Positions 29,311 through 33,440 of a DNA stretch of 33,739 bases are shown here, one piece after another. A program made the translations under genes and the position numbers. Under the pieces are notes generated by a model. That model did not search any database, was not told the origin of the DNA, and was given only the letters and a program-made list of their open reading frames with translations. How positions within the stretch are numbered: the stretch's first letter is position 1; every line of letters begins with the position of its first letter. This DNA comes from an uncultured Pelagibacteraceae bacterium (GTDB lineage: Bacteria > Pseudomonadota > Alphaproteobacteria > Pelagibacterales > Pelagibacteraceae): NCBI GenBank assembly GCA_902607215.1, contig CACLJJ010000007.1, positions 1 to 33,739 on the forward strand. Reading direction: 5' to 3'.

Positions 29311-30540
29311 ATGAGCAAAATGTTTTATGGACTGTATGATCTAGCAAACTCTGCATACACAATGATCATTATAACATTTGTAACGTCAGCTTACTTTGCA
29401 AATCAAATTGTTGGCAACCCACAACTAGGCGCAGCCTATTGGCAATGGACTGCGGGACTTTGTGGAATTACAATTGCACTCACTGGACCTTTCATTGGAG
29501 CATGGGCAGACAAAAAACCAAAAGGAAAAATAAATTTCTTACAAATTTTTACATTACTTTGTATTTTAACAACTTGTTTGTTCTGGTTTGCCAAACCTAA
29601 TTCAAATTATATTTTATTTACTTTAATTATTTTTTTTATTTCAAACTACTGTTACGAAGTTGGAACAATATTTTACAATTCATTATTAAAAAAATGTTCA
29701 AATGAAAATAATATTGGAAAAACTTCTGGGTTTGCTTTTGCATTAGGTTACATTGGATCGGTACCAATACTATTATTAACATTGTATTTTTTTATTTTAC
29801 CCGAAACAATTCCTTTCGGTTTAGATAAAAATAATTTTGAACATATAAGATTCATTCCATTGATTGTTGCGCTTTGGTTTTTTATTTTTTCTTTACCAAT
29901 GATTTCTTATTTTAAAAATGAAATATCTTATGAAAAAAATAATGACTTAACACCAGTATCTAAAAAAATTTTTGAAATAATTTGGAAAAACAAATTTACA
30001 TCTGTTGGAAAATTTCTTTTAGCAAGAATGATTTACTCTGACGCGTTAATTGTATTGATCGCAGGTGGAGGTGTGTATGCTTCAGGTGTTTTTAATTTTA
30101 ACGCAAGCGATTTATTAACACTTGCAATCGCTGGAAACATTGTTGCATTCGTCGGAGTTTTAATTGGTGGACACTTAAATGATAAATTTTCTTCTAAAGC
30201 AATTATTTTATTTTGTATTGCGGTATTAACAGGCACAGTTATCTATGGATCGCTGATTGCCCAAACAAAAAGTGAATTTTTTTATAATGTTATGGTTATT
30301 TCTTTTTTTATCGGTTCTATTCAAAGTGCAAGCCGAGTAATGATGACAAAACTATTAAATAAAACCGATTTAGGAAAAGGTTTTGGTTTGTTTAGCTTTT
30401 CTGGAAGAGTTACTGCTTTTGCTGGACCATTAATGGTTGGAACTTTAACTTATTTATATTCTCAAAGAATTGGGTTCTTATCTGTATCGTTTTTTTTTGT
30501 TTTAGGATTTTTATTAATGATTTCAGTTAAAAATGTTTAA
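29311..30540 (+). CDS. MFS transporter, UMF1/Atg22-like
   Basis: FYGLYDLANSAYTMIIITFVTSAYFANQ, GPFIGAWADKKPKGK, IGSIQSASRVMMTKLLNKTDLGKGFGLFSFSGRVTAFAGPLMVG. Confidence 0.88.
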   Translation: MSKMFYGLYDLANSAYTMIIITFVTSAYFANQIVGNPQLGAAYWQWTAGLCGITIALTGPFIGAWADKKPKGKINFLQIFTLLCILTTCLFWFAKPNSNYILFTLIIFFISNYCYEVGTIFYNSLLKKCSNENNIGKTSGFAFALGYIGSVPILLLTLYFFILPETIPFGLDKNNFEHIRFIPLIVALWFFIFSLPMISYFKNEISYEKNNDLTPVSKKIFEIIWKNKFTSVGKFLLARMIYSDALIVLIAGGGVYASGVFNFNASDLLTLAIAGNIVAFVGVLIGGHLNDKFSSKAIILFCIAVLTGTVIYGSLIAQTKSEFFYNVMVISFFIGSIQSASRVMMTKLLNKTDLGKGFGLFSFSGRVTAFAGPLMVGTLTYLYSQRIGFLSVSFFFVLGFLLMISVKNV

Positions 30541-30543
30541 TTA

Positions 30544-30729
30544 TTAAAAAAAATAATATTTTTTATATTTTTCTATCAAGAATTGAATTTTATTAAAATT
30601 TTGTCTTAATTTTAATTTTTTGGTATACAACTTTAAGTATTTGTCAAATTTAGCACTCACAAAGGATAAAAATTTGTAATTTTTAGCTTGAAATTTCGTT
30701 TCTTTAAAAAATTTATTTAACTCTAACAC
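30544..30729 (-). CDS. Possible small basic protein (61 aa); may be spurious
   Basis: GTG-start ORF, 4 nt from the MFS stop on the other strand; start codon lies inside repeat copy 1. Low-complexity Lys/Phe-rich composition in AT-rich DNA. Confidence 0.25.
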   Translation of the reverse strand: MLELNKFFKETKFQAKNYKFLSFVSAKFDKYLKLYTKKLKLRQNFNKIQFLIEKYKKYYFF

Positions 30730-31047
30730 AATTATTATTTACTCTAACACAAATTATCTATTTAAGGTTGAAAAATTAAAAAACGCTGATTTCATTATGT
30801 TTTTAAAAAAAATATAAATTTTATAAGCTCTAACACAAACTCTAAAAATTTAAAAAAGTAAATTGTGTTAGAGATTCTGGAAAATTGATAAAAAAAAAGT
30901 TTTTTTCTCTAAATTTATTAAATTTGTTAAAAGTATTGATTTTATTGTTAAATTACACTTCTTAGCCTAATTTGGGCACACAACCTATAATTATGTGTTA
31001 GACAATTATACAATTTGTGTTAGAGATTTAAATGTTTTGTGTTAGAG
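30721..31047. repeat. Seven-copy dispersed repeat TTGTGTTAGAG / CTCTAACACAA
   Basis: CTCTAACACAA at 30721-30731, 30742-30752, 30828-30838; TTGTGTTAGAG at 30863-30873, 31015-31025, 31037-31047; variant ATGTGTTAGAC at 30993-31003. Left three point left, right four point right; adjacent copies are 21-22 bp apart. Confidence 0.93.
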
Positions 31048-31066: not shown

Positions 31067-31795
31067 ATGGACGAAGAAGATAATAATAAAACGGATAAAG
31101 AGGGCAACGTTAAAGTTGATGAAAATCAACTTGAAGACGAAAATAAGCCTGTTGATCCTGAATCCAATGAAAGTTCTGGAATAACAACTGAAAATAAAGA
31201 GCAGTCACAATCAGAAGATGAATCTTCGCCTAATGTTGAGGAAAAAACTGAATCTTCTACAGAAATAGGTCAAGAAGCCCAGAAAAGTGATGAAGATAAG
31301 AAAGAACATAAAGTAATTCATAAAAAAGACGGTAGGCTACATATATATATAAGACAAGATAAGTATAAAGGCGAATTAAAATCAAAAAATTGGGTTGGTA
31401 GACTTTATATTGATGGAAAACAAAAGATTTCTTCATCAGGAACACCAAATGTTGAAGAAGCAATACCAATATTAGAGAAATGGTTTGATGATATTCAGAC
31501 AAATAAAGAAAAAGAGGCTGCAACTTCTCCAGAGACACCGGAAGTAACAAAAGAAGAACCTGTTCCAACGCCAGAAGCAACACCACCACCACCAGCTGCA
31601 GAAGCACCCAAGCAAACAGAAGCTGCACCCGTTGTACAGAAAGCACCAGAACCTGTTGTAACTCCAGTAGAAAGCAATAAAGCAACAGAAACAAAAACCA
31701 CTTCAAGTTTTTTAGATAAATTAAAAAATATTAAATTAAAAAAACCATCTTTTGCTAGTGATATTAACCCCCCCAAAAGTTTCTGCGCTCGGTAA
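31067..31795 (+). CDS. Acidic N-terminus + small alpha/beta segment + Pro/Ala/Glu-rich linker; likely N-terminal part of the following PilM-PilN protein
   Basis: Segment GRLHIYIRQDKYKGELKSKNWVGRLYIDGKQKISSSGTPNVEEAIPILEKWFDDIQ between an acidic tail and a PTPEATPPPPAAEAPKQTEAAP linker; overlaps next ORF at a C7 tract. Confidence 0.7.
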   Translation: MDEEDNNKTDKEGNVKVDENQLEDENKPVDPESNESSGITTENKEQSQSEDESSPNVEEKTESSTEIGQEAQKSDEDKKEHKVIHKKDGRLHIYIRQDKYKGELKSKNWVGRLYIDGKQKISSSGTPNVEEAIPILEKWFDDIQTNKEKEAATSPETPEVTKEEPVPTPEATPPPPAAEAPKQTEAAPVVQKAPEPVVTPVESNKATETKTTSSFLDKLKNIKLKKPSFASDINPPKSFCAR

Positions 31796-33440
31796 AGGTA
31801 ATTTTAAAAGTAAATTAGATAATTTTTTTAAATCTAAATTAGGCAAAGCTACAGCACAAGGAGAAGAAATACTTGGGATAGAGATTACAAACAAAGAAAT
31901 AAGATTAGCTCAAATATCAAGCAATAAAGCTAATCAGTGGGTATTAGAAAAATTTTTTATTCATAAAGTGGATTTACCAGATGATGCCGTTGTTTTAGAG
32001 AATGCAGATAAATTAGGAGAAGAGTTGTCGATTGCAATTCAAAAATCAAAAATCACAACTCCAAATGCAGCAATTGCTATTCCTGTAACAAGTGCAATTA
32101 TCAGAGTTGTTACAGCACCTTTAATGAAAGATGAAGAGTTGCAAAAAGCTATTGAAACAAATTCACTTTGGGAAAATTTAGTTCAATTAACAGACAACTT
32201 AGATGATTATTCAATATTTCACCAAGTAATAAATAGAAATCAAAAAGAAAATACGATGGATATTTTATTTGTTGCCTCAAAACTAGCAGACATAAATAGT
32301 TATACATCCATTATTAAGTCGAGCGGACTTAATGCTGTTATAATTGACGTAAAATGTTTTGCATTAAAGTCTGCAGTTGACCAAATAAATCAAATTTCAC
32401 AAAAATCAGAAGATACAAATTTAACTGCTGTTTTAGAATTTGGTCTCGATGAAAATTATCTTATGATTTTATATGATAATAACCCAATAATCACTGATAT
32501 TTTTTTAAGAGGCCAGGATAGACAAGTATTAAAGCAGTCACAAAATCAAGAGGAAAAAGAAGGATTGGTAAGAAGATTTGTTATACAAGTAAAACAAGCA
32601 GTTCAAGATTTTGAAACGAAATATGAAAAAAGAATTAGAAATATAAAAGTTGTTTCGGACTTAAATAACATTGAAGATTACTTATCAATTTTTAGAAAAG
32701 ATCTTGTAAATATTGGATTTAAAACATTTGACCCAATGGATGGTTTAAAAATTCCTCAACAGTTAGAAGAGCAAATAAATCTAACTAATAGATCATACCT
32801 TTCAACAGTTGTAGGACTTGCTTTTAGAAAATTAGATGTATTTGGATATTATAAATTTGTTACAGCAGTAAAAAACATAAACTTGTTACCAAATAGACAA
32901 GGAATGACTAAGCAAAAGAAAATGAAAGCAATTTCAAATTTTGCATTTAAAGGATTTGTTGGAGGAGTAGTTGGGATCTACCTTGTATTATTTGCATTAT
33001 CTTTTTGGAATATTCATTCATACAATCAAAAATTAAAAGAATATCCAAAAGTAATTAAAAATTATTCACTAAAAGTTAAAGAAAACAAAGCAATTACTAA
33101 AGAATTAAAAATAATAACAACCGCTTTACAATTAAGTAAAAGTTTAAAATCAAATAAAGATTTGAGTTACAGAATTTTAGCTCAAATTGCCTCAAGCGTT
33201 CCAAAGAGAGTAAGATTTGATGAAGTTAATTATAACGGAGGCACTAAAGTTACAATCCAAGGAGTTGCAGCTAACGACCAAGATATATTAAAATTTATAA
33301 AAAACTTAGGAAAACAGGCATATATTCAGCAAGCATCATTATCTTCGATGAAGCTTCCAAGAAAATCAAGATCAGGGATAACAATGAAAGGATTTAGAAT
33401 TTTTGTTGTGATTGATCCAAAAGGAAAAAGTAAAGGATAA
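31752..33440 (+). CDS. PilM-PilN fusion (actin-like pilus assembly ATPase joined to TM/periplasmic PilN)
   Basis: PilM: ILGIEITNKEIRLAQISSNKANQWVLEKFFIHKV...AAIAIPVTSAIIRVVTAPLMKDEELQKAIE; PilN: VKNINLLPNRQGMTKQKK, one TM (GVVGIYLVLFALSFW), SYRILAQIASSVPKRVRFDEVNYNGGTKVTIQGVAANDQDILKFIKNL. TTG start is poor. Confidence 0.88.
   Translation: MLVILTPPKVSALGKGNFKSKLDNFFKSKLGKATAQGEEILGIEITNKEIRLAQISSNKANQWVLEKFFIHKVDLPDDAVVLENADKLGEELSIAIQKSKITTPNAAIAIPVTSAIIRVVTAPLMKDEELQKAIETNSLWENLVQLTDNLDDYSIFHQVINRNQKENTMDILFVASKLADINSYTSIIKSSGLNAVIIDVKCFALKSAVDQINQISQKSEDTNLTAVLEFGLDENYLMILYDNNPIITDIFLRGQDRQVLKQSQNQEEKEGLVRRFVIQVKQAVQDFETKYEKRIRNIKVVSDLNNIEDYLSIFRKDLVNIGFKTFDPMDGLKIPQQLEEQINLTNRSYLSTVVGLAFRKLDVFGYYKFVTAVKNINLLPNRQGMTKQKKMKAISNFAFKGFVGGVVGIYLVLFALSFWNIHSYNQKLKEYPKVIKNYSLKVKENKAITKELKIITTALQLSKSLKSNKDLSYRILAQIASSVPKRVRFDEVNYNGGTKVTIQGVAANDQDILKFIKNLGKQAYIQQASLSSMKLPRKSRSGITMKGFRIFVVIDPKGKSKG
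31768..31774 (+). other. C7 homopolymer at the overlap of two out-of-frame ORFs
   Basis: GATATTAACCCCCCCAAAAGT; reading AAC CCC CCC AAA in the first ORF. Removing one C joins the two ORFs in frame. Confidence 0.9.

Follow-up and report, generated by a model that had tools for sequence, protein, structure and literature searches.

A conserved repeat array upstream of the SAR11 pilM operon and a candidate integrase-type DNA-binding domain on PilM

Results

Repeat array in the intergenic region upstream of pilM

The window analysed here is a stretch of 33,739 nucleotides from an uncultured Pelagibacteraceae bacterium, in which a 526-bp intergenic gap separates an MFS gene (29311-30540, co-directional with the pil genes and forming the upstream flank of the array) from the first pilus reading frame. 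Re-reading the window bears out an earlier sequence-only reading, which had described a repeat array at this place: 327 bp of the gap carry six exact TTGTGTTAGAG 11-mers and one two-mismatch copy, ATGTGTTAGAC, and 19 bp lie between the end of the last copy and the ATG. Three minus-strand sites are followed by four plus-strand sites, as listed below.

30721..30731 (-), left-arm site L2, exact TTGTGTTAGAG; position kept in relatives
30742..30752 (-), left-arm site L1, exact; 21 bp from L2
30828..30838 (-), central site; 86 bp from L1, a spacing (84-88 bp) that recurs in relatives
30863..30873 (+), central site, partner of the 30828 site in a divergent pair
30993..31003 (+), right-arm site R3, ATGTGTTAGAC; a weaker conserved site, last base characteristically C
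31015..31025 (+), right-arm site R2, exact
31037..31047 (+), right-arm site R1, exact; 19 bp short of the ATG at 31067

The two sites of the central divergent pair stand 35 bp apart in the window, compared with usually 24-26 bp in relatives. The seventh copy, R3, is genuine, as relatives keep a site there, typically TTGTGTTAGAC, and across 28 loci anchored on R3 the site at this position characteristically ends in C. A random frequency of the motif across the genome had been named beforehand as one observation that would refute the earlier reading, and its absence from this locus in related genomes as another; neither was borne out. A search of the whole assembly (751 kb, partial, ~60% complete) instead returned six exact occurrences, all six at the array, and a reversed control pattern occurred 0 times in the same 751 kb. 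A 61-aa minus-strand ORF, to which the sequence-only reading had also drawn attention, found no family match and is not retained as a meaningful detail.

Conservation and geometry of the array

Among 201 genomes of the same genus, many carry tight clusters of four to eight motif copies. Eighty loci were fetched, comprising the surroundings of PilM-PilN orthologues and other places with arrays, and over 280 sites TTGTGTTAGA is nearly invariant, whereas the flanks are not. Conservation of the array at pilM orthologues extends over three SAR11 genera: it is kept in those relatives whose PilM carries the N-terminal extension described below. Distances between sites of the same orientation cluster at steps of ~10.65 bp (64 distinct values, distances within one array not being independent of each other), and none of 2000 random sets was as periodic as the observed spacings. 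Spacer lengths such as 117, 128, 139 and 150 likewise differ by about one helical turn. This stepping points to proteins that all bind the same helix face. In a group of loci defined at 50% identity, some arrays run nearly all one way (L097, L095). At three loci (L105, L056 and L067) extra sites reach to about 890 bp upstream of pilM, as if the array had been duplicated.

The right arm lies close to the gene. Sites R3 to R1 are no more than about 75-95 bp away from the start codon; in nearly all relatives, the site closest to the gene begins about 22-54 bp ahead of the ATG. Conservation anchored on R3 in 28 loci also picks out an element immediately beside this site.

30965..30991 (+), conserved element beside R3, tentative core promoter

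Positions -27 to -15, counted from R3, show a conserved C/C/A...G..C, and the element includes TATAAT at 30986-30991, next to R3; a simple sigma-70 scan returned no plus-strand promoter match at the array region. The gene upstream of the array varies among relatives and is nearly always co-directional with pilM. Upstream gaps of extended pilM genes are mostly 300-860 bp, with varied but nearly always co-directional neighbours, while unextended pilM mostly faces a divergent pilT across 107-208 bp.

PilM carries an N-terminal extension that co-occurs with the array

Downstream of the array, PilM and PilN form one fused protein in the window's lineage, preceded by an N-terminal extension.

31067..31795 (+), PilM N-terminal extension: acidic linker, basic domain, Pro/Ala-rich linker
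31301..31513 (+), proposed integrase-type arm-binding domain and candidate array reader; 71 aa, pI 9.5
31752..33440 (+), PilM-PilN fusion; PilM_2 PF11104 (E = 6e-19), PilN PF05137 (E = 1.5e-10)
31768..31774 (+), C7 run, one base longer than in the two nearest relatives (L098 and L114)

The match to the PilM_2 profile places the protein in the PilM family. In the window the ORF at 31067-31795 stands in a frame of its own, and in relatives it continues in frame into the PilM-PilN fusion. Alignment attributes the split to the extra base of the C7 run, L098 and L114 both being in frame. The run stands in an AT-rich gene, and its extra base may reflect either a mistake in the assembly or genuine slippage. 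The linkers of the extension are acidic or proline-rich and highly variable, around a basic block of about 60 residues that is almost invariant.

A long PilM, with a frame of about 700-860 aa, follows closely on each array; in genomes without arrays the PilM frame is 570-600 aa. Counting loci with at least 120 bp of upstream sequence, extended PilM genes have 3-8 sites upstream in 52 of 52 cases, and unextended PilM genes 0-1 in 27 of 27. The PilM tree needs four label changes, at least three of which are forced by well-supported branches, with extension and sites changing together (one locus labelled unextended in this tree, L073, is cut off by a contig end). At L075 an extended PilM is nested in an unextended clade and the sites are still present, and two loci from two other genera (L253 and L254) have both extension and array. 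The array is thus tied to the downstream pilM gene.

Pfam returned nothing for the domain up to E = 10, and PHROGs gave only weak matches of unknown function. An AF2 model contains strands and a C-terminal helix (pLDDT 86.6); Foldseek with two models of the domain gave no significant match, and neither the domain nor the integrase described below had a relevant match when PDB sequences were searched. A scan of the genome collection with the domain returned almost only Pelagibacteraceae single-cell genomes. Partial matches in other SAR11 proteins (by eye, a histidine kinase and a CoA-transferase-like protein) were weak and chance-like, and were set aside.

The domain is shared with tyrosine integrases flanked by similar repeats

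The domain profile matches a 423-aa ORF of another SAR11 genome (L199) at E = 3.5e-30. This ORF is a phage-type tyrosine integrase (PF00589), and the matched block is its N-terminus, which is about 55% identical to the domain. A second PF00589 integrase, at L252, has the same N-terminal domain, so that both loci show the homology to tyrosine-recombinase N-termini that is expected of an arm-binding domain. In tyrosine recombinases of mobile elements this position is held by an arm-binding domain that binds arm sites (PMC8138268), and the N-terminal domain of lambda Int binds arm-type sites (PMC4880445). Searches of phage and plasmid records with the domain or the integrase gave no credible match.

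Both integrases adjoin tRNA-Leu, and their elements carry TTGTGTAAGAG repeats, one base off the TTGTGTTAGAG of the window. The pattern TTGTGTWAGAS occurs around them 7 times against 0.86 expected (L199) and 9 times against 0.96 expected (L252). This corresponds to 0.94-1.17 hits/kb, compared with 0.08/kb in the surroundings of 30 other recombinase genes, mostly Xer-sized. The same pattern lies upstream of every extended PilM, and both settings therefore have the repetition that arm sites would show. The L199 and L252 elements are themselves related and so amount to a single independent case. Both sequences (L199 1-5400, L252 1-5420) also encode a serine resolvase, and some of their TTGTGTAAGAG repeats stand in 11-bp tandem pairs. 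Outside SAR11, an integrase at L198 (G433) has a weakly similar N-terminal domain, about 30% identical to that of the window.

A viral version of the domain

Five IMG/VR contigs encode the same domain, as detected with a mixed alignment; neither the PilM-only alignment nor the integrase gave a match when viral contigs were scanned. On two of them (L227 4992-5339 and L230 4992-5342) the domain forms a protein of ~115 aa with a hydrophobic C-terminal stretch that, read by eye, is likely a membrane anchor. The L227 contig is related to the pelagimyophages Mosig and HTVC008M through its ribonucleotide reductase gene, and the isolated phages searched lack a domain protein of the L227/L230 type. The motif is not enriched in the five viral contigs (19 hits versus 17 for the control), and the viral protein may therefore, speculatively, act on host DNA.

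Discussion

A candidate autoregulatory operator

The array is conserved and gene-specific and most probably an operator, and the adjacent gene encodes a strong candidate for its reader. The sequence-only reading had proposed an operator for a cooperative regulator controlling divergent transcription. Its first half is favoured by the phasing, the conservation at pilM orthologues and the promoter-proximal layout; its second half has to be given up, since the MFS gene on the flank points the same way as the pil genes. Since no solved structure matches the extension domain by sequence or fold, its role is argued from homology to integrase N-termini and from co-occurrence with the array, and on these grounds the repeats are very probably its binding sites.

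We favour the explanation, with a probability of roughly two in three, that an integrase-type arm-binding domain captured by PilM binds the array and autoregulates the pilM operon, most likely by repression. The array would then be the operator of the pilM-N-O operon and its reader the operon's own first product, the PilM domain recognising TTGTGTTAGAG just as the integrases related to it probably recognise arm sites of the form TTGTGTAAGAG. The six to eight phased sites, grouped into a left arm, a centre and a right arm, could bind several PilM protomers together, which would wrap or loop about 300 bp. A precedent is the intS gene of prophage KplE1, where IntS represses its own gene when bound next to the -10 box (PMC2951348); together with the position of the right arm, it leads us to propose that PilM binds at its own operon and, most likely, acts there as a repressor. 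In the absence of a clear sigma-70 promoter the choice of repression over activation is inferred from position, the right-arm sites being near the start codon and beside the conserved promoter-like element. Occupancy of the sites would thereby make expression depend on how much PilM is present or on how far it is assembled. Binding may also hold the locus near sites of pilus assembly, as a by-product or second role, since PilM-PilN, as read from its sequence, sits at the inner membrane. That extension and PilM occupy different frames in the window counts against this explanation.

The last of these effects could instead be the main one, with the PilM domain binding the array chiefly to tether the locus to the membrane pilus machine and exerting little transcriptional control. 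The fusion of PilM to PilN, the multi-site array that is unique in the assembly and the apparently membrane-linked version of the domain on pelagimyophage-like contigs would all suit such a tether. A pure tether, however, has no need of sites that always lie near the start of pilM with the right arm beside a promoter-like element, and we consider it unlikely, though the strongest competitor. A separate transcription factor, rather than PilM, might bind the array and control the pil operon, phased direct repeats being typical of transcription-factor operators; this would leave unexplained both the strict co-inheritance of the array with the PilM extension and the near-identical repeats beside integrases bearing the same domain, and we rate it as rather improbable. 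Less credible still is a relic attachment site, in which an eroded integrase left its N-terminus on PilM and the array is now non-functional. Domain and motif do both have integrase-associated relatives, but the sites and the domain stay almost unchanged between diverged genomes in which flanks and linkers drift, and the spacings keep helical phase. Moreover, the central spacers share, by eye, no core sequence and no integrase adjoins the array in the window, so that the core site and adjacent integrase gene of an attP or attL are both missing.

The sequence-only reading had itself offered an iteron-like element or a structured RNA as alternatives, to which a cruciform and a DNA-uptake sequence may be added; we regard this whole group as having a negligible chance of being right. 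As RNA, the inverted repeats fold strongly (z = -5.3), a value we discount because any inverted repeats would give it and because orientation is not conserved. Nearly all sites share one orientation in the L097 and L095 arrays, so hairpins are not kept and a requirement for them is excluded; Rfam, in addition, gave no match at the array. As for an iteron origin, no replication initiator is present among the flanking genes searched (MFS, pil), and the layout follows extended pilM. An uptake sequence would be dispersed, but the motif is confined to the array locus in the 751-kb assembly. The sequence of the array thus lacks the marks of a DNA uptake sequence, an iteron origin and a structured regulatory RNA alike.

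Returning to autoregulation by PilM, a more elaborate version can be sketched, although we hold it only tentatively and think it more likely wrong than right. A part of the type IV pilus machine would have captured an integrase-type domain together with its matching sites, and assembled, presumably multivalent PilM would wrap the array at its own promoter, sensing its own assembly and holding its gene at the membrane. The domain proteins of pelagimyophage-like contigs may then act on the array and interfere with host pili.

Significance and comparison with known systems

SAR11 bacteria are among the most abundant in the ocean, and to our knowledge their pili and pilus regulation have been little studied; our literature search found nothing on the motif, on a DNA-binding extension of PilM or on the regulation of SAR11 pilM. 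If autoregulation by PilM is correct, a pilus assembly protein would be linked directly to its own promoter, apparently by means of a DNA-binding domain from a mobile element. It would suggest that proteins other than recombinases can put arm-binding domains to new use, and it points to a pelagiphage version of the domain. The predicted protein-DNA pair, TTGTGTTAGAG and the 71-aa domain, is testable in vitro without growing SAR11.

Regulators of the ToxR/CadC type are inner-membrane transcription regulators whose DNA-binding domain faces the cytoplasm. The system proposed here resembles them in that an inner-membrane protein would present a putative DNA-binding domain to the cytoplasm, although the domain is unrelated and the protein that bears it is a structural part of the pilus machine. 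Compared with the PilM and PilN of type IV pili (PF11104, PF05137), the core protein and the operon order pilM-N-O are alike, whereas here the two proteins are fused and carry a DNA-binding-type N-terminal extension that matches no Pfam family.

The likeness to the arm-binding domains of tyrosine recombinases such as lambda Int (PMC8138268, PMC4880445) lies in a small N-terminal domain and in short sites arranged in two arms over a few hundred bp. Here, by contrast, the domain is borne by PilM without a core-binding or catalytic domain, and the array stands at the presumed promoter of a pilus operon with no recognisable core site. In intS of prophage KplE1 (PMC2951348), as here, a protein of the type that binds arm sites is encoded directly downstream of sites near its own promoter, a tentative one in our case. 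The regulation predicted here would instead be that of a host pilus assembly gene, with a membrane-linked part of the machine as the proposed regulator.
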